This document shows positions 26,523 through 55,722 of a stretch of 64,000 nt of DNA, piece after piece; position 1 is the first letter of the stretch; every line of letters starts with the position of its first letter. The notes beneath the pieces were generated by a model that saw only the letters and a list, made by a program, of their open reading frames with translations, was not told where the DNA came from and searched no databases. This DNA comes from Gemmatimonadota bacterium (GTDB lineage Bacteria; Gemmatimonadota; Gemmatimonadetes; Gemmatimonadales; Gemmatimonadaceae). Both the position numbers and the translations under genes were made by a program. The DNA lies in NCBI GenBank assembly GCA_027622655.1, contig JAQBYI010000010.1:1-64000 (forward strand), in the 5' to 3' direction.

Positions 26523-27203
26523 CTACGGGCTTCGATCGCCGCCTCCGGGCAGGGCGGCCAGCATCTTCTGCATGAAGCCGATCTCGGTGGTCTGATCGGC
26601 ATACACATCCGATGCAAACCTGAACACGATTTCCTCTTGGCCGGCACCCGGGCTGTTGAACAACTCATCGACCATGATGATCGCGCCCTCGTGATGCCCG
26701 ATCATTCCATGGAGAAACAACCGATCAAAGTCCACGCCGCGTGCCTTGTCGAGCTGCGCCATTTGTTCGTCGCTGAGCATGCCCGGCATCAACATGTCGT
26801 GTTCCATGCCGTTCATGACCATCCGCATGCGCGTGGCCGTTGCGGACGGAACCGGCTCACGGCGGTCGCGTAACCAAGTCTGCATGAGCACGATTTCGTC
26901 GTTTTGCCCCACGACGATACGCTCGCAGAGGCGTCGGATGGCATCGCTGGCGCCGTGCGATACGGCCCACCCTGCCATCACGACGGCCTGAGCGTGATGA
27001 GCAATCATCCCGCTCATGAAGTGCACGTCGGCGGCGGTGTGGTCGTACATCGCGGCGCCCATTCCACCGGCAGCCGGAGCGGTGCGGGCTTCCTCAACCG
27101 AGATCACACCCGTTCCCGGGGCCAATTGCATCCCGCGGGCGCACGCGCCAAGCGCGGTGGCGGCCACGAGTGCTGCAGCAATGCGGTAATGCGGCGCTCT
27201 CAC
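26523..27203 (-). CDS. DUF305 family lipoprotein, probable copper-binding (CopM-like)
   Basis: A 226-aa protein starting at GTG 27203 with AGGAG eight bases upstream. Lipobox LGAC near residue 20. Two DUF305 halves are visible, each with the Met/His motif: DVHFMSGMIAHHAQAVVMA and DRLFLHGMIGHHEGAIIM, plus Met-rich MRMVMNGMEHDMLMPGM between them. These motifs bind Cu(I)/Ag(I) in the periplasm in CopM-type relatives. It lies at the edge of the metal island downstream of the copper-type two-component system. Confidence 0.87.
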   Translation of the reverse strand: MRAPHYRIAAALVAATALGACARGMQLAPGTGVISVEEARTAPAAGGMGAAMYDHTAADVHFMSGMIAHHAQAVVMAGWAVSHGASDAIRRLCERIVVGQNDEIVLMQTWLRDRREPVPSATATRMRMVMNGMEHDMLMPGMLSDEQMAQLDKARGVDFDRLFLHGMIGHHEGAIIMVDELFNSPGAGQEEIVFRFASDVYADQTTEIGFMQKMLAALPGGGDRSP

Positions 27204-27343
27204 TAATCGAACTCCTGGGCTCCATGTCGGCGCGGACGGCCGCCAGGCACTCTGGCGGCACGTGGCGATTCCCGAGTGTACGAATAACGTCGCTGCAGCG
27301 GAAGTCGCTGCGAGCGACGGGCGGCGTCCCGCGCCGCAGCTGT

Positions 27344-28006
27344 TCATCCGAATTTGACAGCCCTGTAGAGTGCCATCGTTCCGTACGCGGTGCTGAACGT
27401 TCGCCGTAGCGACACATCGGCAAAACCGGCGCCCTCGAACAGCGGGACGAGTCGGCCTGTAACGTTGTCCTGCGTGTTTTCGAATCCGTCCAGGAGCTGA
27501 ACGACAAGAAACAACCCGCGCATCACCACGTCGGTCGCGCGTCCCCAGTCAGCTACGTGTAATTCGCTGCCCGGCTTCATCACGCGGAACAGTTCCCGCG
27601 CCGTCAGCTGTTTGTTCTCCCACGATAAATGGTGAAAGAACAGGCTCGAGACAACGCGATCGAAATGGGCTGCGGGGTACGGCAGTTCGTGGGACAGCGC
27701 GTTGTCAAATCGTATGGCGACATCCGCTCGCTCTGCCTTGCGAGTCGCCAGCGCGAGGATCCGCAGATCGCCATCGACGCCTGTGACATCGGCCAGCGGT
27801 TCGCGTTGTTTGATCCTGACGGCGAGCGTGCCAGTACCGGATGCCAGGTCGAGCACACGGTGGCCCGGTGCGATTCCGGCCTGCTCAATCAAGGCTTGCT
27901 TGAAGGTACGTTCGCGCGTGGTTGCTGCCACGACGGAATCGTACAACGGGGTCAGCCAGTGAAAGCCGAGTGCCGGCACGTACTTCGATTCATGCGGCTG
28001 CCGCAA
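27344..28006 (-). CDS. Class I SAM-dependent methyltransferase
   Basis: A 220-aa UbiE/MenG-like methylase: LDLASGTGTLAVRI as motif I, VTGVDGDLRILALA motif II, FDRVVSSLFFHHL and LFRVMKPGSELHVADWG downstream motifs. TTG start at 28006 with GGAG five bases upstream, 12 bp after the histidine kinase stop, so it is co-transcribed with the two-component system. Substrate unknown; a role in quinone methylation or metal(loid) methylation is possible but not shown. Confidence 0.83.
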   Translation of the reverse strand: MRQPHESKYVPALGFHWLTPLYDSVVAATTRERTFKQALIEQAGIAPGHRVLDLASGTGTLAVRIKQREPLADVTGVDGDLRILALATRKAERADVAIRFDNALSHELPYPAAHFDRVVSSLFFHHLSWENKQLTARELFRVMKPGSELHVADWGRATDVVMRGLFLVVQLLDGFENTQDNVTGRLVPLFEGAGFADVSLRRTFSTAYGTMALYRAVKFG

Positions 28007-28018
28007 CGTCGCTCCGAA

Positions 28019-29470
28019 TCATGAGTCTGGCCTGTCACCGCGCGCATCGCTCGCCCGGCAGCGAACGACGATAGTCGTTCCGTTACCGTTACCGCCATCG
28101 CTGCGCAACTCGACGTCGCCGCCCATGGCCTCGATGATCGCACGCACGATCGCGAGACCGAGCCCGGATCCCGGCGTGATGCTGCGTCCGGCGTCGCCTC
28201 GGTAGAACCGTTCGAAGACCCGTGACTGTTCGTCCGGCGGAATGCCCCGTCCGTCGTCGCTCACGACCAACTCAACGCTACCGGTACCTGCCCCGCGCGC
28301 CACCAGTCTTACATGCGAGCCGCGGCCCGCGTATTTCACCGCGTTGTCGACCAGGTTGCTGAGTGCCCGCGCAAGGAGCACCCCATCGGCTCGGACGGAT
28401 AGGTCGTCTGGCGCATCCATGGTAAGCCGCACGTCAAGTCTCGACGCTGCGTTCTCAAACCGACGCACGAGCCCGGTGAATAGAAGCGCAACGGACACGG
28501 GCTCCAGTGACGTTCGCAGCGCGCCGCCGTTGTTGCGCGCCAATGTTATCAGGTCCTCGGCCAGCGCCGAAACTTCGCGAAGGTCGGCGAGCGATTGCTC
28601 AAGGACCTGCCGATACTCAGCCGCCGGACGGTCTTTGCGCAGAGCAACGTCCACGTCCCCACGCAGGACCGTCAACGGGGTCTTGATTGCATGCCCCGCA
28701 TCGGCGAGAAACCGTCGCTGACTCTCAAGCAACGCATCGATGCGGCCGAGCATGCCGTTCAGCACCGATACGAGGCGCTGGAGTTCCGCCGAGTCGGCCT
28801 CGACAGCTATCCGGTGGCCTGGAAGCGACGCCTCCATCGCCTCGGCTTCACCGATGATGGCCAGCACCGGCCGTACGGCGTACCCCGCCAGCCACCATCC
28901 GACGCTTCCACCGAGAATGAATCCGACGGCGACGAGTCCGGAGAGAAACACAACGATTCGGCCGAGCACGGCATCCGTCTCCGCCGTCGACGTGGCGACC
29001 TGCAGCAGATGCAGGCGGTGCTGAGGGCCAATGAGCCCGAGCGGGTAAAGCACCGATCGGTGTGCTTGCCCCTCAAACACGATCGCAAAGAGCTCCGGGG
29101 CTTCCGTGACGGATACGCGCGCGCGCACTCCGGCAGGGAGCGGGAGGTTCCGGACGCCAAGATTCCTGGTGCGCACGACGGGCTCACCGCTCAGCGTCCA
29201 GACCTCCGCGTAACGGACAAGCACGGAATCGTGGCCCACTCCGGCGCTCACCAACACTTCGTCGTGAAAATGCACACTCTCGTCGGGCGAGTCGGCCGTG
29301 GCAGCCGCTTCGATGCCCGCGAGGCGCAGGAGCACAGCGTCAAGGCGTTCATACAGGGTAGTGCGCAACGCCCAGTAGCCTGCGGCCGAGCCGAACACGA
29401 CGATGGCGCCGACTGCCGCCGCGATTCGCAGGGCGAGCCGTGCGCGGAATGAACGTGCGGGCCGCGTCAC
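28019..29470 (-). CDS. Sensor histidine kinase, CusS/CopS-like
   Basis: A 483-aa membrane kinase: TM1 about 12-35, a periplasmic sensor of ~135 residues (contains HFHDEV and QHRLHLL histidines), TM2 about 170-195, a HAMP linker, a DHp helix with the phospho-acceptor His in AGHAIKTP (near residue 260; the residues around it differ from the common SHELRTP), and an ATPase domain with LVDNAVKYA, DDGRGIPP and GSGLGLAIV. ATG overlaps the response-regulator stop. Likely senses periplasmic metal and controls the divergent copA operon. Confidence 0.87.
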   Translation of the reverse strand: MTRPARSFRARLALRIAAAVGAIVVFGSAAGYWALRTTLYERLDAVLLRLAGIEAAATADSPDESVHFHDEVLVSAGVGHDSVLVRYAEVWTLSGEPVVRTRNLGVRNLPLPAGVRARVSVTEAPELFAIVFEGQAHRSVLYPLGLIGPQHRLHLLQVATSTAETDAVLGRIVVFLSGLVAVGFILGGSVGWWLAGYAVRPVLAIIGEAEAMEASLPGHRIAVEADSAELQRLVSVLNGMLGRIDALLESQRRFLADAGHAIKTPLTVLRGDVDVALRKDRPAAEYRQVLEQSLADLREVSALAEDLITLARNNGGALRTSLEPVSVALLFTGLVRRFENAASRLDVRLTMDAPDDLSVRADGVLLARALSNLVDNAVKYAGRGSHVRLVARGAGTGSVELVVSDDGRGIPPDEQSRVFERFYRGDAGRSITPGSGLGLAIVRAIIEAMGGDVELRSDGGNGNGTTIVVRCRASDARGDRPDS

Positions 29471-30144
29471 GGTGCAGATCCGTCAAAACGAAATCCGACG
29501 CCCTTCACCGCCACGATGACGCGCCGCTGGCCCCGGTGCTCCAGCTTGTTTCGCAGGTTCGCGATGTGCACATCAATCAGCCCGGTTCCCGGATCGAACG
29601 TCATGCCCCAAACCCGTTCGAGCAGCTCAGCCCGCCCGACGGGCTCGCCGGACGCGCTCATCAACGATTCGAGCAACCGGTACTCGGTCGGCGTGACGTG
29701 TACCGGCGTTCCGCCGCGACGTACCTCGTGCCGCACACGGTCGAGTTCGACGTCACCCATATGCAGGGAAGACGTTGGAGTACCGGCCGCCCGCCGGCCG
29801 AGGGCGCGAACCCGCGCGACGAGCTCGCCGAAGTCGAACGGTTTGGTCATGTAGTCGTCCGCACCGACATCGAGCCCGCGTATGACATCCTCGGGGGCGT
29901 CGCGCGCAGTGAGCATCAGAATGGGAACCGCGCCACAATCAGCCCGAAGCGCTGACGTCACTCGAAACCCATCCGTGTCCGGCAGCTGAATGTCGAGAAT
30001 GACGACATCGTACCCGCCGGAACGCGCGCACACGAGCGCCGACGCGCCGTCGCCGGCGACGTCCACTTCGTGCCCCTCTTCGGTGAGACCTCGCTTTACG
30101 AAATCCGCGACTCGCGGTTCGTCCTCAACCAACAAGATCCTCAT
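29467..30144 (-). CDS. OmpR-family response regulator, CusR/CopR-like
   Basis: A 225-aa regulator. The receiver domain has VEDEP (D8), phospho-acceptor D51 in ILDIQLPD, and K101 in MTKPF; the C-terminal winged helix (about 128-225) has TPTEYRLLESLM and the recognition helix TGLIDVHIANLRNKLE. GAGGG precedes the ATG. Transcribed divergently from the multicopper oxidase gene across a 142-bp gap, the usual arrangement of copRS with copAB. Confidence 0.9.
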   Translation of the reverse strand: MRILLVEDEPRVADFVKRGLTEEGHEVDVAGDGASALVCARSGGYDVVILDIQLPDTDGFRVTSALRADCGAVPILMLTARDAPEDVIRGLDVGADDYMTKPFDFGELVARVRALGRRAAGTPTSSLHMGDVELDRVRHEVRRGGTPVHVTPTEYRLLESLMSASGEPVGRAELLERVWGMTFDPGTGLIDVHIANLRNKLEHRGQRRVIVAVKGVGFRFDGSAP

Positions 30145-30286: not shown

Positions 30287-32047
30287 ATGACATCCATATA
30301 CATGACCAACGACCCGTTGCGGCCGACCCGCCGCGCGTTCGTACGCGCCTCCGCGTTTGCGGTTGGCGGACTCACTGGATTGAACCAGCTCCTCCCCGAC
30401 TTCTCGTTGGCGGCAGCCGGCTTGCTCAACGAAGGTCCGGGTAGAGACCGCTCAGCCGCCATTGACCTGACCGTCGGTCGCACCACCGTGCGGATCGGTG
30501 AGCGAAACGCCGCCGCGGTCACCGTCAACGGTTCCATTCCGGCTCCGCTGCTCCGCTTTCGTGAAGGCGACACCGCCACCATCAGGGTGATAAACACCCT
30601 CGGCGAGGACACGTCGATCCACTGGCACGGCATCATCCTGCCCAACGCGATGGACGGCGTTCCCAAAGTGACGTTCCCCGGTATCAAACCGGGCGAAACG
30701 TTTCAATACGATTTCCCGCTCCTCCAAAGCGGCACGTACTGGTACCACAGCCATTCGGGAATGCAAGAACAGCTTGGCGTTTACGGGCCATTGGTTATCG
30801 ACCCGCTCGAGCCGGACCCCTTCGGGTACGAGCGCGAACACATCATACAGCTCTCGGATTGGACGTTTGAGAATCCGCATCACGTGATGGCCAACCTGAA
30901 GAAAATGGGCGGCTACTACAATTATCAGCGCCGCACCGCGGCCGACATCTTTCGCGCTGGTGACGCCGGGCTCGCCGACCGGTCGGCCTGGGGCCGGATG
31001 CGCATGGATCCCACCGACATTGCAGACATCACCGGCGAGACGTACACCTATCTAATGAACGGCCGGCCGCCGGCCGCCGCGTGGACCGGACTTTTCCGGG
31101 CCGGCGAGCGGGTTCGCCTCCGGCTCATCAACAGCGGTGCCGCTACGTATTTCGACGTTCGTATCCCGGGGCTCGAGATGACGGTCGTACAGGCCGACGG
31201 CCAAAACGTGCAGCCGGTGACGGTCGATGAGCTTCGCATCGCGATCGCGGAAACGTACGACGTGATCGTTCAGCCCACGGAGGAGCGCGCGTATACTGTG
31301 TTTGCCGAGACGATCGATCGCAGCGGTTTTGCGATGGGCACACTCGCTCCACGTGAAGGGATGCGCGGGCCAACCCCGGAGCGTCGGCGCCGGCCGCTGC
31401 GTTCCATGGCCGATATGGGAATGGCTATGGGCGGCGGGGCGATGGCGGGAATGGACATGCCCGGGATGTCGCAGGCCGACCATGCCGGACACGTGATGAC
31501 ATCGGTCGACGCCGTGCCGCACGGGAAGGACGGGCACGGCCCGGGGAATTCGATGATTCCCGAGATGACGCAGCCACGGCTCGATGACCCGGGCACGGGG
31601 CTCGGCGAGGATGGCCGCCGGGTGCTTGCCTATCGCGATCTCAGAGGCCTTGTGGCGGCAACTGATGAGCGCGAGCCGGAGCGCGAGATCGAGCTTCACC
31701 TGACGGGCAATATGGAGCGCTATCTCTGGTCGTTTGACGGGAAAAAGTTCTCTGACGCCCCCGAACCGATTTCGATTGGCCTTGGCGAGCGCGTACGCGT
31801 CACGTTCGTCAACGACACGATGATGGAGCATCCGATCCATCTGCACGGCATGTGGATGCTGCTCGAAAACGGCGCGGCTGAGTTTCAGCCACGAAAACAC
31901 ACAGTAAACGTCAAACCCTCCGAGCGGCTGTCGGTAATAGTCGAGCCAGACGTCCCCGGAAAATGGGCCCTGCATTGTCACATCATGTATCACATGGATA
32001 GCGGGATGTTCCGGGTGGTTGACGTCAGCGGCCGCGCGGGGAACTGA
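30287..32047 (+). CDS. copA: Multicopper oxidase / copper-resistance protein CopA
   Basis: A 586-aa periplasmic oxidase with a Tat signal (PTRRAFVRASA). The four copper-site motifs are present: IHWHG, YWYHSHSG, HPIHLHG and the C-terminal HCHIMYHMD. A Met-rich stretch (MGMAMGGGAMAGMDMPGM) lies around residues 375-400, typical of cuprous-binding in CopA/CueO proteins. It oxidises Cu(I) to less toxic Cu(II) in the periplasm. Two in-frame ATGs (30287, 30302) are possible; the second also leaves the Tat motif intact. TATACT at 30264-30269 may be its -10 box. Confidence 0.93.
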   Translation: MTSIYMTNDPLRPTRRAFVRASAFAVGGLTGLNQLLPDFSLAAAGLLNEGPGRDRSAAIDLTVGRTTVRIGERNAAAVTVNGSIPAPLLRFREGDTATIRVINTLGEDTSIHWHGIILPNAMDGVPKVTFPGIKPGETFQYDFPLLQSGTYWYHSHSGMQEQLGVYGPLVIDPLEPDPFGYEREHIIQLSDWTFENPHHVMANLKKMGGYYNYQRRTAADIFRAGDAGLADRSAWGRMRMDPTDIADITGETYTYLMNGRPPAAAWTGLFRAGERVRLRLINSGAATYFDVRIPGLEMTVVQADGQNVQPVTVDELRIAIAETYDVIVQPTEERAYTVFAETIDRSGFAMGTLAPREGMRGPTPERRRRPLRSMADMGMAMGGGAMAGMDMPGMSQADHAGHVMTSVDAVPHGKDGHGPGNSMIPEMTQPRLDDPGTGLGEDGRRVLAYRDLRGLVAATDEREPEREIELHLTGNMERYLWSFDGKKFSDAPEPISIGLGERVRVTFVNDTMMEHPIHLHGMWMLLENGAAEFQPRKHTVNVKPSERLSVIVEPDVPGKWALHCHIMYHMDSGMFRVVDVSGRAGN

Positions 32048-32051
32048 CCAC

Positions 32052-32792
32052 ATGCGCATCCGAGTCCGCTGTTGCCTTTTGGCTCCGGCGTTGGCTGTTG
32101 CTAGCGCGCTGGGCGTTAGCACGCCGATCTCCGCTCAGGTCGCTGATAAAGCGATCCACACGTTCGTCCTCTTCGACCAGCTCGAACAGCGCAACATTCG
32201 TGGCGAACAGCCAGTCGCTTGGGACATGATCGGGTGGGTTGGCGGCGACTTCAATCGCGTCTGGATCAAGTCCAGCGGCTCCCGCGCCACGCGTGGCGGA
32301 GGTAGCGACGCCGAGTTGGAGGCGCTGTTCGGCCGCCTTATTTCGCCATTCTGGGATGCGCAAATTGGTGTGCGTCTTGACACGCGCGGCGATGGGGGCG
32401 CGCGCCACACACGCTTGAGCGCAGTCGCCGCGCTCGAAGGCCTCGCGCCGTACTGGTTCGAGATCGAACCGTCGCTCTTCATCAGCGATCGTGGCGACAT
32501 ATCGGCTGAGTTTACGGCCACGTACGACTTGTTCATCACACAGCGTTTGATCGCCCAGCCCCGCCTCGACCTGCGGGCGGCGATTCAGGAAGTTCGGGAA
32601 TTCGGCGTCGGCTCCGGGTTGAACGACGCTGGGATCGGCCTGCGCCTGCGCTATGAATTGCGGCGAAAGCTGGCGCCATATGTCGGCATTAGCTGGAACC
32701 GCAGCTTCGCGGGAACGGCTGATCTGGCGCGTGCCGGCGGTGAAGCCGTTTCCGCGACTGCCCTCGTTGGCGGGATGCGCCTGTGGTTCTGA
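32052..32792 (+). CDS. copB: Copper-resistance protein B (CopB), outer-membrane barrel
   Basis: A 246-aa exported protein with a signal peptide ending STPISAQ. The C-terminal ~200 residues match the CopB family: WDMIGWVGGDFNRVWIKSSG, PFWDAQIGVR, PYWFEIEPSLFISDRGDISAEF, RLRYELRRKLAPYVGI and a terminal barrel strand ending LWF. The usual N-terminal Met/His-rich domain is missing; the start follows copA after only 4 bp. CopB is thought to sequester or export copper at the outer membrane. Confidence 0.9.
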   Translation: MRIRVRCCLLAPALAVASALGVSTPISAQVADKAIHTFVLFDQLEQRNIRGEQPVAWDMIGWVGGDFNRVWIKSSGSRATRGGGSDAELEALFGRLISPFWDAQIGVRLDTRGDGGARHTRLSAVAALEGLAPYWFEIEPSLFISDRGDISAEFTATYDLFITQRLIAQPRLDLRAAIQEVREFGVGSGLNDAGIGLRLRYELRRKLAPYVGISWNRSFAGTADLARAGGEAVSATALVGGMRLWF

Positions 32793-32838
32793 GTACGCAG
32801 CGTTCGCATTTGCTCGTCCACGCACTGGAGGTACATGC

Positions 32839-33867
32839 ATGACCGAGGCCCGTTCCACTGCAACCCGCGGCGGCGCCATCGCCGAACGTCTGGCGCTTAG
32901 TGCGCTGGACTATCCGACCCCCGCGCGCGCCAACCGCTGGGATTTCATGCTCGGCGCGCTTACGCTGGTGTCGCTGGTCGTGCTGGCGCTCACCGGAATC
33001 GTACTGACGCAGTACTACAACCCTGCTCCGCTTTCCGCACACGATTCGCTGCTGTACATCATCAGCAACTCGCCGGCCGTCTCGCTGCTGCGCGATACCC
33101 ACGTCTGGGCCGCCTCGGCCGCGCTGGCCCTCGTGTTCGCTCACTTGGCCGCCGTGTTCTGGAGGCGAGGCTTTCGGAATCCGCGCGAAGGCATGTGGTG
33201 GAGTGGCGTCGTGTTGCTGATCCTGCTGTTTGGCCTCGCGTTCACCGGCACGGCCCTACGGGCCGATCAGGAAGCCGTCGAAGCGCTGGCCCATGCCGCT
33301 GCGGGAGCAAAGTTCGCCGGTGCGGCGGGCGCGTTGCTGAGCGCCGACTTCACACCGTCAACGCCGCTCCTTTCGCGACTCTATGCGTTTCACGTATCCA
33401 CGCTGCCGCTTGCCCTGATCGCGTTGATGGCGCTTCACCTGTGGCTCGTGCGCAATCTTGGCGTCAGCGCGGTGGGCCCCGAGCGTGTGCGCTTCACGTC
33501 TCACCTCCGACTGATCAGCGGGGCTGGATTCGTGCTGGTAGCGATCGTCGCGAGCGCCGCGTTGATCTGGCCCGCGGCACTCTCCGCGCCCGGAGTGGTC
33601 GGATTTGAAGTCACCAAGCCGTCTTGGCCGTTCCTATGGGTCTACGCTGCCGAGAACCTGTTCGGGATGGCGGGGATGCTCATCGCTCCAGCCGTCCTCT
33701 TCGGTTTTCTCGCCCTCGTACCGATCACCGACCGGCACGACGGGCGCGCCGCGCAAATCACGCGGGTTCTCGGCGCCGTACTTTTCGTCCTGATGATCGG
33801 TGCGATCATTTATGCCGCGATTGCACCGGGTCAGAGTCACCTCGGCATGGACATGGGAGGCGTTTGA
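32839..33867 (+). CDS. Cytochrome b (b6 plus subunit IV-like) with degenerate quinol motif
   Basis: A 342-aa integral membrane protein with about eight hydrophobic helices. Two pairs of haem-ligand histidines are spaced as in bc1/b6f cytochrome b: THVWAASAALALVFAH and AFHVSTLPLALIALMALH. The C-terminal part aligns with subunit IV (KPSWPFLWVYA...LVPITDR), but the PEWY quinol-oxidation motif reads PSWP and lacks the Glu. GGAGG seven bases before the ATG. No Rieske protein or cytochrome c is adjacent. Its place between copB and a Met-rich membrane protein suggests a redox partner of the copper system; that role is inference. Confidence 0.85.
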   Translation: MTEARSTATRGGAIAERLALSALDYPTPARANRWDFMLGALTLVSLVVLALTGIVLTQYYNPAPLSAHDSLLYIISNSPAVSLLRDTHVWAASAALALVFAHLAAVFWRRGFRNPREGMWWSGVVLLILLFGLAFTGTALRADQEAVEALAHAAAGAKFAGAAGALLSADFTPSTPLLSRLYAFHVSTLPLALIALMALHLWLVRNLGVSAVGPERVRFTSHLRLISGAGFVLVAIVASAALIWPAALSAPGVVGFEVTKPSWPFLWVYAAENLFGMAGMLIAPAVLFGFLALVPITDRHDGRAAQITRVLGAVLFVLMIGAIIYAAIAPGQSHLGMDMGGV

Positions 33868-33869
33868 AC

Positions 33870-34472
33870 ATGCACACTTTTCGGCACGGCTCATCTGCAC
33901 GGTGGATGCGCATTGGTGCGATTGCGCTCATCGCGCTTGTCCTGAGCGTTGCCGTCTACGGTAACGCCGAGGCACACGACCAGGGAACACTCAAGCTCGT
34001 GTCCAAGACCTTTCGTGCCGGCGATTCGCTGGTAGTTCTCGGCACGAAGTTCACGCCCGATGACGAAGTCACCTTGCTGCTGTTAGGCGTCTCGGGCCGT
34101 ATCACGTTGGCCAAAGTGCCGACTGACACCGCCGGCGGTTTCCGACGAGTGTTGCTCGTCCCGGCCTCAGTGGCGCCCGGACAGTATCGGCTTCTGGCGG
34201 AAGCGATTGACGGCGATGTGGTCGCGGGCCTCGATGTGATGGTTACGGCCGCGGCGGCGCCAATGGCGCCGATGGCGGGAGTGGCCAATATGGAGGGAAT
34301 GCCCGGACACGAAGGAATGGCGACGGACCCGACGGGCGAGGCTCTATCCATCGACCGGGAGCGAAGCACCGCGGTCACGGCGACAGCGATTCTGTTGATC
34401 ATTGCATGTGCAGCGGCCGGAGCGATGTTCCTCCGCGGCTCACATGCCAACCCTCTCGAGGAGCAGTCATGA
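33870..34472 (+). CDS. Membrane-anchored periplasmic protein with Met-rich segment
   Basis: A 200-aa protein with an N-terminal signal/anchor helix (about 13-35), an Ig-like domain (KLVSKTFRAGDSLVVLGTKFTPDDEVTLLLLG...), a Met/His stretch PMAPMAGVANMEGMPGHEGM near 135-155 that could bind Cu(I), and a C-terminal TM helix (about 170-192). GGGAGG precedes the ATG. Starts 2 bp after cytochrome b and overlaps the next gene's ATG. Not assigned to a named family; probably a metal chaperone or cytochrome-associated subunit. Confidence 0.7.
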   Translation: MHTFRHGSSARWMRIGAIALIALVLSVAVYGNAEAHDQGTLKLVSKTFRAGDSLVVLGTKFTPDDEVTLLLLGVSGRITLAKVPTDTAGGFRRVLLVPASVAPGQYRLLAEAIDGDVVAGLDVMVTAAAAPMAPMAGVANMEGMPGHEGMATDPTGEALSIDRERSTAVTATAILLIIACAAAGAMFLRGSHANPLEEQS

Positions 34473-35353
34473 ATACGATGAAACGTTCGCGCCGGTTGGG
34501 CGCGACAGTCGGCGGTGCGATTGCCGCAACGCTGGTCTCTGCCGCGGTGCTCGCGGCGCACGATTTCTGGCTCGTGCCGAACGCGTTGACGTTCGCACCG
34601 GGCGCGTCGGTTGAGGTACTCGGCCAGTCGGGCTCCCGGTTCCCCACAAGCGGCGGCCCGACGCAGCCGGCTCAGGTGGCCGAAGCTCGCATCGTCGGCA
34701 AGTCAAGCGACGTCAAGATCACCGATCTTTCGGTGAGCGGAAAATCGTTGATGTTGCGTAGCAAGCCCGGTGGCGCCGGCCAATACGTCGTGGCCGTATC
34801 ACTCACGGCCCGCAACGCGCGGGCGACGCCGGCCCGGCTCCAACGGTACATCGCGCTCGAGGGCGCGCCCGAACTCGCCGCACGGTACGAACAGGAAGGC
34901 AAGTACCCGAAGGCCGACAGCGTGACGCAGACGAGTGCGAAGTTCGCCAAAACGATCGTCGAAGTCGGTTCGAACGGTGCCCGCGCTTTCGACAAAGTTC
35001 TGGGACAGGCGCTCGAGCTCGTTCCGCTGGACGATCCGGCGCATACGCATGCCGGCGGATCGGTTCGCGTTCGCCTGCTCTTCCATGGCAAGCCGATCCC
35101 GAACGTACACCTTCGCGCTGGCTGGGGTTCGCCGGACGCCGTGAATTCCGAACCGCCCACCGGCGCGCCGGCCAAGCCCGATCAGATCGTCGTCACTGGC
35201 GCCGACGGTGTGGCCAGGATCGATATCACCGAACCGGGCCTGTGGAATGTTCGTACGCTCTACGCCGCAGCGATGCAGGGCATGCCGGAACACTGGGAAG
35301 TGTACTTCTCGACGATGGTGTTCAGCGTGAGCGGTGGGATGGGCGGGCCATGA
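34469..35353 (+). CDS. DUF4198 family periplasmic protein
   Basis: A 294-aa exported protein beginning after its signal peptide with AAHDFWLVPNALTFAPGASVEV, the typical DUF4198 entry with an N-terminal His. The middle has QALELVPLDDP and RVRLLFHGKPIPNVHLRA, and the end DGVARIDITEPGLWNVRTLYA. DUF4198 proteins occur near cobalt/nickel or copper transporters and are thought to bind metal in the periplasm. ATG overlaps the previous stop; GAGGAGC just upstream. One of three paralogues here and the most divergent. Confidence 0.82.
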   Translation: MNTMKRSRRLGATVGGAIAATLVSAAVLAAHDFWLVPNALTFAPGASVEVLGQSGSRFPTSGGPTQPAQVAEARIVGKSSDVKITDLSVSGKSLMLRSKPGGAGQYVVAVSLTARNARATPARLQRYIALEGAPELAARYEQEGKYPKADSVTQTSAKFAKTIVEVGSNGARAFDKVLGQALELVPLDDPAHTHAGGSVRVRLLFHGKPIPNVHLRAGWGSPDAVNSEPPTGAPAKPDQIVVTGADGVARIDITEPGLWNVRTLYAAAMQGMPEHWEVYFSTMVFSVSGGMGGP

Positions 35354-35393
35354 GACCCTGTCGGCCATCCTCCGCACCGCGCAGGGCGATGAT

Positions 35394-35804
35394 ATGGCGA
35401 TCGCTCGGGTCGGGGCGAAGCAGGGGGAGTATGGCGCCTACGAGTATGGCACGTCATATTTCAGGGACGAAAACGGCACGCCGTTCTTCCGGTACACGAC
35501 CCCGACCGGTAACGAGTACGGGTTCAGCGTTCCTGCGTGGAGAGCCTTCCTCGCAGAGATAAAGAAGCCGGCGACCGGAGTTATTCCCACCAAGTTCAAG
35601 GTGACTGCCAGTGGCAACGCCCCGTGGTTCGACCGACCGGAAGTCAACCGTGAAGCCCTCGATGCCCGTGCCGCCTACTGGGCAGACCGTGCCGGCGGGA
35701 CAGGCGAAGGGGCATCCACTCTTGCAGCGGCTGCTCAAGCAGAGGGGTCTGCCGATGGTGGTGGATCCGGCACCCCCTCAGGTGCCGCAGGCACGGCGCG
35801 CGCC
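35394..35804 (+). other. In-frame coding-like region upstream of the second DUF4198 gene
   Basis: The reading frame of the second DUF4198 gene is open from 35334 with an ATG at 35394. The residues it would add (about 137) do not look like the family: GEYGAYEYGTSYFRDENG, TPTGNEYGFSVPAWRAFLAE and then an Ala/Gly-rich linker. The AWRAFLAEIK segment faintly recalls DUF397 proteins of actinobacteria, only as a weak resemblance. It is either a short unknown protein, a remnant of inserted foreign DNA, or an N-terminal extension of the DUF4198 protein. Confidence 0.4.
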
Positions 35805-36680
35805 ATGACGTTCACTGCCGATCGTAGGTACGGAAAGCGGCCGGGGACACAGCCCGGCCGCCGGACGGCTGTGCGGGTCGCAGCTATGGTGGTTGCGCTG
35901 CTCGTGACGGTCACGGCGGGTGCCGCCGCACATGACCTGTTCATGCGGTCAAGAGCTTGGTTCGTGTCGCCGGGTGCTTCCGTTCGCGTCAACGTGCTGA
36001 ACGGTACGTTCTCGAAGAGCGAATCGCCGCTCACATTCGACCGGCTCACCGACCTCAGAATTGTCGGCCCCGGCGGGACGACGCGCCCCGACACCACTGC
36101 GTGGCGCGTCCACGGCGATTCCACCGATCTTGTCTGGACGGCCGGCGTGGCCGGAACGTATGTCGTGGGCGCCGCGGTTGCCCCGCGCGACAACCCCAAA
36201 CCGGCCGACGTTTTCAATGCCTATCTCAAGGCCGAAGGCAACCCCGACGAACTCGAACTGCGCCGCAAGAATGGTGAGCTCACCAAGGCCGTGCGCGAGC
36301 GTTACGGGAAAAACGTCAAGGCGCTTGTTCAGGTTGGCGAGGCCCGCACCGCCGAGTTCGCCACTGAGCTGGGGCACTCGGCGGAGCTCGTGCCGCAAGA
36401 GAATCCGTATTCGCTCCGCGCAGGTGCCGAGTTGCGAATCAGAGTCTTGGTCGATGGCAAGCCGGTCGCGAATCAGGTCGTGCTGTTCGGCGGCGTCGGA
36501 ACGGACGGCAAGACCATTGCCGAACTGGCGGTGCGATCCGGTACCGACGGCGTGGCGACGATCACGCCAGGCAAGCCGGGTAGCTGGTACGCGAAGTTCA
36601 TTTCTCTCAAGCGGGTGACCGACGACCCCGCCATCGACTACCAGTCGAAGTGGGCGACGCTGGCGTTTGGGGTGCGCTGA
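35805..36680 (+). CDS. DUF4198 family periplasmic protein, second copy
   Basis: A 291-aa protein with a basic n-region and signal segment (VAAMVVALLVTVTAGAAAHD). The mature part begins HDLFMRSRAWFVSPGASVRVNVLNGTF, then TYVVGAAVAPRDNPK, HSAELVPQENPYSL, ELRIRVLVDGKPVANQVVLFGG and a closing YQSKWATLAFGVR. It is clearly paralogous to the protein at 46702-47520. Start 35805 is chosen because the signal peptide follows it; the frame is open further upstream. Ends 12 bp before the P-type ATPase gene. Confidence 0.85.
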   Translation: MTFTADRRYGKRPGTQPGRRTAVRVAAMVVALLVTVTAGAAAHDLFMRSRAWFVSPGASVRVNVLNGTFSKSESPLTFDRLTDLRIVGPGGTTRPDTTAWRVHGDSTDLVWTAGVAGTYVVGAAVAPRDNPKPADVFNAYLKAEGNPDELELRRKNGELTKAVRERYGKNVKALVQVGEARTAEFATELGHSAELVPQENPYSLRAGAELRIRVLVDGKPVANQVVLFGGVGTDGKTIAELAVRSGTDGVATITPGKPGSWYAKFISLKRVTDDPAIDYQSKWATLAFGVR

Positions 36681-36692
36681 TACCGGCGGTGC

Positions 36693-39071
36693 GTGCAGCC
36701 GCGTAACGAACTGGAGCGACTGATCACAGACCCCGTGTGCGGCATGTCGGTCAAAGCGGACAGTCCGCATCGTCACACATTCGATGGCACGGAGTACGCG
36801 TTTTGCAGCACGAACTGCCGGGATCGCTTCGTGGCCGATCCCAGCGCGTTCATGAAGAAGTCGGCGACTCCAGTCGTGGCGCCCCCGGCTTCGTCGCCCT
36901 CAGCTTCGCCAGCGCCAGTAGCAACACCGGCAGCGCCACCCACGACCGGCTCGGCCGGCATCTGGACCTGCCCTATGCACCCCGAGATCGAGCGCGACGG
37001 TCCGGGATCGTGCCCCATCTGCGGCATGGCGCTCGAACCCAAAGACATCTCCCTGGGCGACGAGGACAACTCCGAACTGCGCGACATGTCGCGTCGCTTC
37101 TGGGGATCGGCAGCGCTCACTGCTCCGCTGCTGCTGATCGTGATGCGCGAAATGGTACCAGGACACTTCCTGGAAGACCTCCTGTCCGGCGCCACGCAGA
37201 CTTGGGTCGAGCTGCTCCTGGCCACACCAGTCTGCACCTGGGCCGCGTGGCCGTTCTACACGCGTGCCGTGGCGTCCGTCCGGAATCGAAGTCTCAACAT
37301 GTTCACGCTCATCGGCCTCGGCGTGTCGGTGGCGTACGGTTACAGTCTTGTGGCAGCGTTCGTCCCCGGGATCTTTCCGATGTCGTTTCGGGACGCCGAC
37401 GGCCAGGTCGCCGTCTATTTCGAGGCCGCAGGCGTCATCGTCACGCTGATCCTGCTTGGACAGGTTCTCGAATTGCGGGCGCGCAGCCAGACGAGCGCGG
37501 CAATCAAGAAGCTGCTCGGCATGGCGGCCAAGACCGCGCGCCGCATTCGGGACGATGGCAGCGACGAAGACGTTCCGCTTCACGCCGTACAGGTGGGCGA
37601 TCGGTTGCGCGTGAGGCCGGGCGAAAAGGTGCCGGTGGACGGTGTCGTGCTTGAGGGTACGAGCGTCATCGACGAATCGATGGTGAGCGGTGAGCCGATC
37701 CCCGTTGCAAAACAGCCCGATGACAAAGTCGTCGGGGCGACGGTGAACGGCACCGGATCGCTCGTGATGCGTGCCGAAAAGGTAGGGGCCGATATGCTCC
37801 TTTCGCGTATTGTGGCCATGGTCGCCGACGCGCAACGGAGCCGTGCGCCCATACAGAAGCTCGCTGATGTCGTGTCGGGCTACTTCGTGCCCATCGTGAT
37901 CGGGATCGCGCTCGTGACGTTCGGCGTCTGGGCGAGCGTCGGTCCAGACCCGAAAATGGCGCATGCGCTGATCAACGCCGTCGCCGTGCTTATCATTGCG
38001 TGCCCGTGCGCGCTGGGGCTCGCGACGCCCATGTCCATCATGGTCGCAACCGGAAAGGGCGCGTCTGCGGGTGTGCTCTTCCGAAATGCCGAAGCGATTG
38101 AAGTGATGCGCAAGGTCGATACGCTGGTCGTTGACAAGACCGGCACACTGACCGAGGGGAAGCCCAAACTCGTCTCGGTATTGCCGATCGCCGGATTGGA
38201 CGAGCAGGAGTTCCTGAGACTTGCCGCGAGCCTGGAGCGCGGCAGCGAGCATCCACTCGCCGAAGCCATCGTACGCGGCGCCGAATCGCGCTCCGTCGCG
38301 CTGGTCGAGGCAACCGAGTTCCAGAGTATCACCGGCAAGGGCATCCGCGGCAGCGTTGAAGGTCGCGCCGTGGCACTCGGCAACGCCGCACTGATGACCG
38401 ACATCGGAGTGGCCGCAGGAGATTTCGCTGACCGGGCAGAGTCGCTCCGCGCCGAGGGGCAGACGGTGATGCTCGTCGCCGTTGACGGCAAGTTTGCCGG
38501 CCTGCTCGGCGTCGCCGACCCGATCAAGGAGACGACGGCCGAAGCGATCGCCGCGCTGCATGAGGAGGGCATCCGCATCGTGATGCTCACCGGCGACAAC
38601 GCAACGACCGCCAACGCCGTGGCACGTCGCCTCGGAATCGACGACGTGGTCGCCGACGTCCTGCCGGATCAGAAGGTGGCTGCAGTCAAGCGCCTGCAGG
38701 CCGAAGGCCACGTAGTCGCGATGGCGGGCGATGGCATCAACGACGCTCCGGCGCTCGCCCAGGCGCAGGTTGGAGTCGCGATGGGAACGGGGACGGACGT
38801 CGCTATGGAGAGCGCATCGGTAACGCTCGTGAAGGGAGACCTGCGCGGAATCGTGCGCGCCCGCCGGCTCAGCAGGATGACGATGCGCAATATCCGGCAG
38901 AATCTCTTCTTCGCCTTCGCGTACAACGCCGCCGGCGTGCCGATTGCCGCTGGAGTCCTTTACCCATTCTTCGGGCTGCTGCTCAGTCCGATCATCGCTG
39001 CCGCCGCAATGAGCTTCAGCTCCGTATCGGTAATCGGCAATGCGCTCCGGCTCCGACGCGCGAAGATGTGA
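36693..39071 (+). CDS. Copper-translocating P1B-type ATPase with N-terminal YHS and CPxCG-type metal-binding domains
   Basis: A 792-aa inner-membrane pump. It begins with a YHS domain (DPVCGM near residue 11, then [12 protein letters not shown]) and continues with a heavy-metal-binding [20 protein letters not shown] segment near 92-120; the usual CxxC HMA domain is absent. Membrane helices follow, then the actuator VSGEP, transport motif C437-P-C439, phosphorylation motif DKTGT (D481), SEHPLAEA and [11 protein letters not shown] start. It exports Cu(I) or Ag(I) from cytosol to periplasm for the Cus pump and CopA to handle. Confidence 0.93.
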
Positions 39072-39089: not shown

Positions 39090-39623
39090 CTAGCGCTCCG
39101 CAAACGTCTTGAGCTCACCATTCCGGTCGAAACTCACGACGGTGTAGCGTACTGAAGGACCGTCCATTCCCGGGCTCCCCGTCGGCATCCCGGGCACGGC
39201 GATGCCCACAACGGGCGGCCGGTCGGTGAGAACCCGCAGAATGTCCGCTGCCGGAACGTGCCCTTCGACGACGTAGTCTCCGATCGTCGCGGTGTGGCAT
39301 GACACGGCCGAGTTCGGCACGCCGAGCCGCGACTTGATTGGCGACATATCCACGCGATCGACCACGTCTATGGTGAAGCCTTCCTTCCGCATGATCGCGA
39401 TCCACTTGCCGCAGCATTCGCACGTGGGGCTCTTGTACACCGTCATGGCAACATCGCCAAGCCCAGCCTCGGCAAGCGTAGCGTGTGTTCGCGACTGCTG
39501 CGTGCCCTGCCACACCGTCACACCCGCCAACAGCGCGAGTGCGAACAAGGCGGCACCGATGACAATGCCCCTACCATTTCCGCGCCGTGGCGGAGCTGCA
39601 AAATGTTTCTGCGATTTTGACAT
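39090..39623 (-). CDS. DUF411 family metal-binding protein
   Basis: A 177-aa protein with one N-terminal TM helix or signal anchor (about 20-40) and a DUF411 domain: YKSPTCECCGKW with a CxCC metal site, SAVSCHTATIGDYVVEGHVP and GIAVPGMPTGSPGM. These proteins sit in copper clusters and probably bind Cu in the periplasm. AAGGAGAG three bases before the ATG. Convergent with the ATPase and upstream neighbour of cusA on the same strand. Confidence 0.88.
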   Translation of the reverse strand: MSKSQKHFAAPPRRGNGRGIVIGAALFALALLAGVTVWQGTQQSRTHATLAEAGLGDVAMTVYKSPTCECCGKWIAIMRKEGFTIDVVDRVDMSPIKSRLGVPNSAVSCHTATIGDYVVEGHVPAADILRVLTDRPPVVGIAVPGMPTGSPGMDGPSVRYTVVSFDRNGELKTFAER

Positions 39624-39646: not shown

Positions 39647-42600
39647 TCAGAACGCGGGTTCGATTGCCGCAGACGGCGAGTTGATCGCGCCGGCCCGTGC
39701 CTCAGCGCGGACCACCTCCCGGCCCTTCCACAATGAGTAGATCGCCGGAATCACGACCAGCGTGAGAATCGTGCTGGTGACCATCCCGCCGATCATTGGC
39801 GCCGCGATGCGCCGCATCACGCTCGCGCCGGCGCCGCTCCCCCAGAGGATCGGGAGCAGGCCGCCCATGATCGCCACGGCGGTCATGAGTTTCGGCCGCA
39901 CGCGATTCACGGCACCTTCCATCACGGCATCGTACAGGTCGGCAGCCGACGGAATCCGCCCATCACGCCGCTTCGCCGCCCAGGCCTGGTCGAGATAGAC
40001 CAGCATGATGACGCCGGTTTCGGCCGCCACGCCGGCCAGCGCGATAAACCCGATCGCCACGGCCACCGACCGCTGGTAGCCGAGCGCCCAGATGAACCAG
40101 ATCCCGCCCACAAGCCCGAACGGAAGCGAGAGCATCACGATCAACGACTCGGTGACGTTCTTGAAGTTGAAGTAGAGGAGCAGGAAAATGATCGCAAGCG
40201 TCGCTGGAATGACTACTTTCATCCGCTCTTTGGCACGCTCCATGTACTCGTACTGGCCGCTCCATGTCATCGTGTAGCCTGCCGGGAGCGTTACCATCGC
40301 GTCGACCCTCGCGCGTGCCTCCTCGACGTAACTGCCGATGTCGCGGTCAACAACATCGACATACACCCACGCCGTCGGCTGCGCTCCTTCGGTGCGCACG
40401 ACCATCGGGCCGGCGACCTGCGTAATCGTGGCGATCTGGCCAAGCGGAACTTGGGCCGCAAAGCCGCCGCCACCGCCCATGCCGACTGCCGCGGCGCTGC
40501 CACCCGTCACTCCACCGCCCATACCGGCACTCATGGCCTGGCCTACGCCAGAGGAACCGCCGGTCCCGGTACCTCTCGTGTGCGCGACCGGGACCAGCAC
40601 ATTGGCAAGACGTTCCGGCGAATCCCGCAGTTCTTGCGGATAGCGCACACGCACAGCGTAGCGTTCGCGCCCTTCGACAGTCTGCGTGATCGTCATCCCA
40701 CCGATCGCAGTCGCAATGACGGCTTGCACGTCGCCGATATTCAAACCGTGACGCGCGGCCGCTCCGCGGTCGATGTTGATGTCGAGGTAGTAGCCCGATA
40801 CTGCGCGCTCGGCGAACGCGCTCCGGGTTCCCGGCACGTCGCGAACCGCCTGTTCCACTTCAATTCCGAGTCGCTCGAGTTCGGCCAAGTCAGGTCCAAA
40901 GATCTTGACACCGACTGGCGTACGAATCCCGGTCGCGAGCATGTCGATGCGCCCTTTGATCGGCATCGTCCACGCATTCGTGACGCCGGGAATGCGCACA
41001 GCGGAGTCCATCTGGACAATCAGCTGGTCGTACGTCAATCCGGGACGCCACTGGTCACGCGGCTTGAGCGTGATGGTCGTCTCGATCATGTCGAGCCCCG
41101 CGGGGTCGGTCGCAGTATTCGCGCGGCCGGCCTTACCCCACACGTGTTCGACCTCGGGGAACTGCTTGATGATGCTGTCCTGCAGCCGCAGGATCTCCCG
41201 GACCCGAGCCACACTGATTCCCGGGAGCGTCGTTGGCATGAAGAGGATCGTTCCCTCCTCGAGCGGCGGCATGAATTCGCTGCCGATTCCCTTCCACGGC
41301 ACCCACGTGAGAATGAGCACGACGCCGGCCGCGACGATCACCGACCAGCGGCGCCGCAGCACAAACGTGATGATTGGATGGTAGAACCACTGCATCGCGC
41401 GGTTCACGGGGTTGGACCGCTCAGGCCACAGCTTCCCACGAACGAAGAGCGACATCGTGACCGGCACCAGCGTCACGGAGAGGAGGCTCGCGGCCGCCAT
41501 CGCGAAAGTCTTGGTGAACGCGAGCGGAGTGAACAGGCGTCCCTCTTGCCCTTCCAGCGTGAAAACAGGAACGAACGAGACGGTAATGATGAGCAGTGAG
41601 AAAAAGAGCGCCGGGCCAACTTCCTGCGACGATTTGATGACGATGTTGAGCCGGTCGCGAGCCGACAGCACTCCCGTGTCAATGCGGCCCTGCCGATCAG
41701 GTTTTCCGCCGGCGGCGTCCACCGCGCGTTCGAGATGTTTGTGCATGTTCTCGATCATCACGATCGCAGCGTCGATCATTGCCCCGATGGCGATCGCGAT
41801 GCCACCGAGCGACATGATGTCGGCGCCTACTCCAATCGTTCGCATTGCAATGAACGCCATCAGGATCCCGACCGGCAGCGTGAGAATCGCCACGAGCGCC
41901 GACCGCGCGTGAAGAAGAAACAGGATGCACACGAGCGCGACGACGATGCTCTCTTCAACCAACTTGTCGCGAAGCGTGTCGATAGCCCGGTGAATCAGGT
42001 CACTGCGGTCATACATCGGCCGGATGATCACACCCTCGGGCAAACCGCGTTCAACTTCGGCGAGCTTCGCCTTGACGCGGTCGATCGTGGCGAGCGCGTT
42101 CTCGCCGAACCGCATCACTACTATTCCGCCGACGGCGTCCCCACGCCCGTCGAGATCGGCGATACCACGCCGAACGGCTGGCCCAATGGACACGCGGCCG
42201 AGGTCCGCCACGCGGATCGGCGTACCGGCCGCCGTCGCGCCGACGACGACGTTCTCGATGTCACCGATGGATTCCAGATAGCCTAGCCCGCGCACCATGT
42301 ATTCGCGCTCGGAGAGTTCCATCACCATCGCGCCAATGTCGGAGTTGGCGTTCTGGATCGCGCTCATTACGCGGGTGACCGGAACGCCGTACGCGAGCAG
42401 CTTGGCCGGATCAACGTCCACCTGATACTGCTTCTCGAATCCTCCTACCGACGCCACCTCGGCCACACCGGGTACGGCAGTGAATGCGTATCGCAGGAAC
42501 CAGTCCTGAATGCTCCTTAGCTCGGCGAGGTCGAGCCGGCCGGTTGTATCCTCGAGCGCGTACTGGTAAACCCAGCCCAGTCCGGTCGCGTCAGGGCCAA

Positions 42601-42985
42601 GCGTCGGCGAAACCGACGCCGGGAGCTTTCCCTTCAGGCCGTTGAGGTACTCCAGAACGCGCGAGCGGGCAAAGTAGAGATCGGTATCATCGTCGAAGAT
42701 GACGTAAACAAACGACACCCCGAAGAACGAGTAGCCGCGCACGACGCGTGCGCCTGACACTTTCAGCATCTCGGCCGCGATCGGGTACGTGACCTGATCC
42801 TCGACGATTCGCGGAGCCTGTTCGTTGTAGTCGGCCTGAATCACAACCTGCACGTCGCTGAGGTCCGGAAGAGCTTCGAGAGGTGTATTCCTGAGCGCCC
42901 AGACGCCACCGCCAATCGCGGCGACGGTGAACATCAGCACGAGCAGCGGGTTGCGGACCGACCACTCAATTATGCGCTTGAGCAT
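39647..42985 (-). CDS. cusA: Heavy-metal RND efflux transporter, CusA-type
   Basis: A 1112-aa inner-membrane proton antiporter with twelve TM helices and two large periplasmic loops. The TM4 region is GGIAIAIGAMIDAAIVMIEN, as in CusA-type copper/silver pumps. A Gly/Met-rich insertion (MSAGMGGG..VGMGGGGG) lies in the second periplasmic loop at about 803-843. Starts ATG 42985 with GGAG in the last codons of cusB. Works with CusB and CusC to move Cu(I)/Ag(I) from periplasm to outside. Confidence 0.93.
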   Translation of the reverse strand: MLKRIIEWSVRNPLLVLMFTVAAIGGGVWALRNTPLEALPDLSDVQVVIQADYNEQAPRIVEDQVTYPIAAEMLKVSGARVVRGYSFFGVSFVYVIFDDDTDLYFARSRVLEYLNGLKGKLPASVSPTLGPDATGLGWVYQYALEDTTGRLDLAELRSIQDWFLRYAFTAVPGVAEVASVGGFEKQYQVDVDPAKLLAYGVPVTRVMSAIQNANSDIGAMVMELSEREYMVRGLGYLESIGDIENVVVGATAAGTPIRVADLGRVSIGPAVRRGIADLDGRGDAVGGIVVMRFGENALATIDRVKAKLAEVERGLPEGVIIRPMYDRSDLIHRAIDTLRDKLVEESIVVALVCILFLLHARSALVAILTLPVGILMAFIAMRTIGVGADIMSLGGIAIAIGAMIDAAIVMIENMHKHLERAVDAAGGKPDRQGRIDTGVLSARDRLNIVIKSSQEVGPALFFSLLIITVSFVPVFTLEGQEGRLFTPLAFTKTFAMAAASLLSVTLVPVTMSLFVRGKLWPERSNPVNRAMQWFYHPIITFVLRRRWSVIVAAGVVLILTWVPWKGIGSEFMPPLEEGTILFMPTTLPGISVARVREILRLQDSIIKQFPEVEHVWGKAGRANTATDPAGLDMIETTITLKPRDQWRPGLTYDQLIVQMDSAVRIPGVTNAWTMPIKGRIDMLATGIRTPVGVKIFGPDLAELERLGIEVEQAVRDVPGTRSAFAERAVSGYYLDINIDRGAAARHGLNIGDVQAVIATAIGGMTITQTVEGRERYAVRVRYPQELRDSPERLANVLVPVAHTRGTGTGGSSGVGQAMSAGMGGGVTGGSAAAVGMGGGGGFAAQVPLGQIATITQVAGPMVVRTEGAQPTAWVYVDVVDRDIGSYVEEARARVDAMVTLPAGYTMTWSGQYEYMERAKERMKVVIPATLAIIFLLLYFNFKNVTESLIVMLSLPFGLVGGIWFIWALGYQRSVAVAIGFIALAGVAAETGVIMLVYLDQAWAAKRRDGRIPSAADLYDAVMEGAVNRVRPKLMTAVAIMGGLLPILWGSGAGASVMRRIAAPMIGGMVTSTILTLVVIPAIYSLWKGREVVRAEARAGAINSPSAAIEPAF

Positions 42986-51041: not shown

Positions 51042-55722
<4,681 letters not shown>

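Follow-up and report, generated by a model that had tools for sequence, protein, structure and literature searches.

The window, a stretch of 64,000 nt from a Gemmatimonadota genome assembled in 115 contigs, carries in a copper-resistance operon a cytochrome b of the fused b6/subunit-IV type that belongs to a distinct clade, widespread across phyla. Members of the clade share a set of invariant residues, are commonly encoded beside a small secreted partner and are enriched near copper genes. The best reading of these proteins, which we put forward tentatively, is that they move electrons across the membrane between quinone and periplasmic copper, in one direction or the other; a haem-based periplasmic cupric reductase is the more likely form. 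Dedicated bacterial cupric reductases are rare. A family of quinone-linked cytochromes b associated with copper loci in many phyla would connect respiration with the detoxification of copper, and would be an instance of the bc-complex core being re-used without Rieske protein and cytochrome c.

The cytochrome b gene and its operon

Positions 32839-34472 hold two genes, one for the cytochrome b (342 aa) and one for a Met-rich protein (200 aa), here called the partner. They lie in a run of genes on one strand (30287-39071) that encodes CopA, CopB, the cytochrome, the partner, two DUF4198 proteins and a Cu-ATPase (Table 1). The gaps between the first four genes are 4, 46 and 2 bp, and the partner gene is joined to the following DUF4198 gene by an ATGA overlap. 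The adjacent copA multicopper oxidase and copB genes identify a CopA-CopB copper resistance operon. The preliminary description had placed the cytochrome in such a setting, and this is borne out by CopA and CopB upstream and by the Met-rich membrane protein and the Cu-ATPase downstream. Homologues of the divergent two-component genes also flank L037, L046, L081 and other loci of the clade.

Table 1. Genes of the copper-resistance operon and the adjoining regulatory genes.
Feature	Position	Strand	Evidence
Divergent two-component system	histidine kinase 28019-29470; response regulator 29467-30144	-	PF00072/PF00486 for regulator
CopA-type multicopper oxidase	30287-32047	+	TIGR01480 794 bits, cut-off 479
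CopB outer-membrane copper resistance protein	32052-32792	+	PF05275 E 8.5e-77; start read from sequence
Cytochrome b, copper-linked clade, fused b6 + subunit IV type	32839-33867	+	PF00033 E 1.5e-21, PF13631 E 9.7e-21
Partner protein: signal peptide, Ig-like sandwich, variable Met/His linker, C-terminal membrane helix	33870-34472	+	
Secreted DUF4198 protein	34469-35353	+	PF10670 E 3e-30
Second DUF4198 protein; DUF4198 part = residues 197-421	35334-36680	+	PF10670 E 9e-29
YHS- and HMBD-domain Cu-type P1B ATPase	36693-39071	+	TIGR01511 604 bits, cut-off 397; PF04945, PF19335

The region of approximately 24.5-55.7 kb resembles a metal-resistance island. It includes two CusA-like RND pump genes (39647-42985 and 52513-55719) with apparent adaptor and outer-membrane partners, and genes for a CopM-like DUF305 protein (26523-27347) and a DUF411 protein (39090-39623) on the two sides of the operon. 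Both DUF4198 proteins (34469-36680) show an apparent His start after the signal peptide (AAHDFW, AAHDLF), so that the operon may encode three secreted N-terminal-His proteins. An unrelated N-terminal stretch (35334-35850) precedes the second DUF4198 domain and could be a small gene in its own right or reflect a misplaced start.

The cytochrome is the sole PF00033 match in the genome. A PF00355 search of the genome gave three Rieske matches, all on contigs other than that of the window and none in the cytochrome's own cluster; by eye, one resembles a dioxygenase-type protein and the other two are Rieske orphans, either secreted or lipoproteins. The CxxCH motif is absent from the gene models picked across the whole window, in agreement with the initial observation that neither a Rieske nor a cytochrome c gene is near. 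In addition, the genome encodes an NrfD protein resembling an Alternative Complex III subunit (partly by eye). With a single cytochrome b, the NrfD protein and Rieske matches on other contigs, the gene stands outside any recognisable bc1 complex in this genome.

Fold, conserved residues and phylogeny of the clade

The PF00033 match and four haem-ligand histidines place the window protein in the cytochrome b/b6 superfamily. The ligands are H88/H102, with 13 residues between them, and H185/H200, with 14 (the b6 spacing). A subunit-IV-like part, recognised as PF00032 in 10 of 46 relatives, continues after the b6 part. The fused architecture, the four retained histidines and the PSWP sequence at the PEWY position (P261-S-W-P264) are thus as the preliminary description gave them. 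The AlphaFold2 model of the cytochrome has a mean pLDDT of 94, and among solved structures it matches bc1 cytochromes b best (TMq up to 0.79). Cytochrome b6/subunit IV and bc1 cytochrome b have their fold and four haem ligands in common with the clade, which also shows the b6-like ligand spacing. Unlike the bc1 and b6f proteins, the window cytochrome has no adjoining Rieske gene; PEWY is lost, and the clade carries an invariant set of residues, E145/E148/H152/E272/H334.

Of 298 genomes of the phylum that were searched, 131 gave some cytochrome b match, and among these a separate group of close matches could be distinguished (43-70% identity, most of them full-length). Flanks were fetched for 13 full-length and two partial relatives from this search. 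A scan of a genome collection, in which candidates were selected by two family motifs, contributed 47 more loci, nine of which duplicate genomes of the phylum search. The scan loci are titled Gemmatimonadota, Chloroflexota, Actinomycetota, Bacillota, Desulfobacterota, Nitrospinota and Deinococcota, together with single MAGs from other phyla, and most relatives come from metagenome assemblies. The nine duplicates and four short or broken rows (L049, L053, L085 and L096) were left out before residues were counted. L049 and L053 are truncated cytochrome copies, possibly broken genes, that still lie inside copper gene clusters. As controls, 40 ordinary cytochromes b were used, all from Gemmatimonadota. 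In a maximum-likelihood tree the 50 family rows and the 40 controls are parted by one branch with a support of 100/100. At least five genomes (G016, G084, G092, G097 and G108) hold both a clade member and another cytochrome b match.

All 50 family rows, whose invariance is partly selected in the genome-collection rows because candidates there were picked by two family motifs, retain the four haem ligands and the same residues at five further positions; the same residues are invariant in a 14-row set obtained without motif selection. These are E145 (mostly K or W in the controls), E148 (W in 39 of 40 controls), H152 (mostly V or E), E272, which follows the former PEWY loop (L in 36 of 40), and H334 at the C-terminus (mixed in the controls). 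H222 is likewise found in 50 of 50 rows, and in 12 of 40 controls. Residues E145, E148 and H152 are located on the cd helix, at positions that, from work on bc1, presumably line the quinol-oxidation pocket; in an alignment with cytochrome b6, E145 and E148 stand for V and W of WDQVGYW. The subunit IV C-terminus, where H334 is found, we take to face the periplasm or lumen. Judged by homology, the quinol-oxidation pocket probably holds or adjoins all five residues; as a set they offer simple targets for mutagenesis.

An alignment of the PEWY region, which the preliminary description had proposed as a check, shows that the position of the PEWY Glu is S262 in the window and P, F, L, A or others in the family, with an acidic residue (D) in one of 46 rows; among the controls it is E in 21 of 40 and D in 8 of 40. 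By itself this variation leaves quinol chemistry possible. The E/E/H/E/H set is a strong clue. Attention had first been drawn to the absence of the PEWY Glu and to the partner's Met-rich stretch; these are weak clues, and loss of the Glu is retained here as a family trait only. In two Bacillota loci (L076 and L087) the cytochrome continues beyond the conserved terminal His into a helical C-terminal extension that bears an EEHVHEL/KEHVHEL motif.

Partner proteins and genomic neighbourhood

The partner forms an Ig-like sandwich followed in most rows by a C-terminal membrane helix; the mean pLDDT of its AlphaFold2 model is 87. Such a protein is encoded beside the cytochrome in all 13 full-length phylum loci and in 34 of 54 distinct loci, the window counted. 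With cleavage sites read by eye, a His occupies the apparent mature start in 39 of 39 Ig-like rows (31 distinct), and in about 10 rows it may be the second residue (AA/VH). In the window the codon of this His is at 33975-33977. The Met-rich linker varies between relatives and is not conserved, and it was rejected as a copper site.

CopC/YcnI-type copper proteins bear an N-terminal His. This feature they have in common with the apparent mature N-terminus of the partner, but the partner has no Pfam match to these families. Pfam CopC is absent among the 16 families matched by 28 partner rows (E up to 0.05), and CopC is also absent among the structural matches listed for the partner model, where the fold matches are MG2 and neocarzinostatin-like. 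Pfam accordingly lends no support to the partner being a CopC. Ten further loci, mostly from Actinomycetota and Bacillota, have instead a small helical secreted protein upstream of the cytochrome, and several of these proteins also start with His. On plasmids and at several loci from Chloroflexota and Actinomycetota, a small protein (about 75-105 aa) that seems by eye to have two membrane helices is encoded after the cytochrome.

Genes for a multicopper oxidase, CopB or a P-type ATPase occur within 5 kb of the cytochrome in 24 of 54 family loci, versus 2 of the 40 Gemmatimonadota controls. In this stricter count CusA was omitted as a copper marker, because it is also present in 3 of 40 controls; with RND pumps added, the numbers are 26 of 54 and 5 of 40 (Fisher p 3e-4). 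The density of copper genes is 8.2, 5.4, 4.8 and 0.9 per 100 kb at distances of 0-2, 2-4, 4-6 and 6-9 kb, respectively. Outside the Gemmatimonadota branch, copper genes are found within 5 kb in 14 of the 29 loci numbered L070-L100. The order copA-copB-cytochrome b-partner, sought in other genomes at the suggestion of the preliminary description, recurs in L037 and L046, which together with the window represent three Gemmatimonadota families. The neighbourhood is accordingly not unique to the window, and the separate clade speaks against a displaced bc1 component. The cross-phylum survey upholds the original proposal insofar as it concerns a dedicated electron-transfer module of non-bc1 character with a link to copper. 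This link is not exclusive; at 30 of 54 loci no gene for a multicopper oxidase, CopB or P-type ATPase lies within 5 kb. The Pfam scan of neighbours covered 129 of 196 listed proteins. No report on the clade was found in the literature searched, where broader queries were judged by titles and the beginnings of abstracts.

Proposed function, alternatives and plasmid copies

The copper binding, electron direction and activity that we infer for the cytochrome could be combined as follows. The protein would operate without the quinol-oxidation apparatus of bc complexes, having neither a linked Rieske partner nor the PEWY Glu. On the periplasmic side, E145/E148/H152/E272/H334 would form a putative redox or metal site, to which the secreted Ig-like partner, with the His at its mature N-terminus, may bring copper, or at which it may shield the metal. 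Through haems bL and bH, this site would be connected with a quinone site near the cytoplasmic face (invariant H222, R/K205). Electrons would most likely pass from quinol via bH and bL to Cu(II), and the resulting Cu(I) would go to efflux pumps and chaperones; this direction is favoured over the reverse since the reduction of Cu(II) by quinol should be downhill at the commonly quoted potentials. It is possible, if doubtful, that the quinol-oxidation pocket as such has been converted into a periplasmic copper redox site of these five residues, served by a secreted N-terminal-His protein, to give a quinone-linked copper reductase or oxidase that functions without Rieske protein in many phyla and on plasmids.

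The same anatomy would fit a Cu(I):quinone oxidoreductase, in which electrons from periplasmic Cu(I) pass through bL and bH to quinone, so that Cu(I) is detoxified and the respiratory chain is fed alongside multicopper oxidase. Genes for multicopper oxidases, which also oxidise Cu(I), lie near 10 of 54 loci, but the presence of an enzyme that already performs this oxidation, and the fact that passing electrons from Cu(I) to menaquinone is uphill in energy at usual potentials, make such an activity improbable. Alternatively, the cytochrome could be a general quinol-driven source of periplasmic electrons, for haem or thiol reduction in cytochrome c maturation or for small redox proteins, that came to be used at copper loci owing to the damage which copper stress does to these pathways. 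Ccm-type (cytochrome c maturation) genes are found near L041, L043 and L097 (partly by eye), a Ccm-related ABC gene near L044 and L078, TlpA-like proteins near L037, L041 and L100, and DsbD_TM in 3 of 76 scanned neighbours. Since several loci thus adjoin cytochrome c maturation or DsbD-like genes, the substrate may be other than copper; copper genes are, however, the commoner neighbours (24 of 54), and we consider a general electron source rather unlikely.

A module for the binding or sensing of copper or some other cation, with no net transfer of electrons, for example a haem-linked sensor or transporter accessory, would be in line with the presence of two-component genes in the vicinity of 12 of 54 loci and with the small membrane partners, but the retention of all four haem ligands in 50 of 50 rows renders it distinctly improbable. 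Hardly to be expected, finally, is a displaced respiratory bc1 or b6f cytochrome b that oxidises quinol with an unlinked Rieske protein. The bc1 fold and the two orphan Rieske proteins elsewhere in the genome are compatible with such a role, and PEWY variants occur in working bc complexes. Against this, the family forms a separate clade in the tree, at least five genomes hold cytochromes b of both types, the genome encodes an Alternative Complex III-type NrfD protein and the pocket residues are altered to E/E/H. The displaced-subunit explanation was rejected on the tree, the genomes with both types and the Qo residues.

Among known systems, ExtP (NF040969), the cytochrome b of the selenite/tellurite-reduction operon of Geobacter, gives the best NCBIfam score, with 125 bits for the window protein and matches in 46 of 46 rows. 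The window protein falls far below the cut-off of 290, and ExtP is a 23.2 kDa protein whose gene cluster also encodes ExtO, a Rieske protein, and multihaem cytochromes c (PMC5877670); membership of ExtP was rejected on the score and on this differing gene cluster. The membrane redox protein CcoG, which has an Ig-like periplasmic domain of unknown role, is reported to reduce Cu(II), and a review calls it the first specific bacterial cupric reductase, with an unknown electron donor (PMC7558416). CcoG is an iron-sulfur protein and the clade consists of cytochromes b; the likeness is at most one of working. PepSY_TM reductases (FoxB, CrpH) use His-ligated membrane haems for periplasmic reduction, and for CrpH the reduction of copper is proposed and not shown (PMC13038864). 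They constitute a different family, and Pfam searches of the window proteins and relatives gave no PepSY match. By analogy with these membrane redox proteins of other families, for which copper reduction is reported or proposed, a cupric reductase role for the clade would have parallels.

Plasmid copies of the cytochrome exist in cultured Streptomyces (Streptomyces sp. F2 and FR1, and S. mirabilis P16B-1 with two copies) and in Pseudarthrobacter defluvii, with 'cytochrome b N-terminal domain-containing protein' as their sole annotation. In four plasmid loci from Streptomyces and Pseudarthrobacter, read with 9 kb flanks, heavy-metal P-type ATPases are present in three and a metal-sensitive regulator in two. 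The passages on the P16B-1 plasmid in PMC9195940 give no role to the cytochrome. According to the same passages, curing S. mirabilis of the plasmid with the two copies hardly altered copper tolerance in its own host, a point against the copper reading, and transfer of the plasmid to S. lividans raised copper tolerance (PMC9195940).
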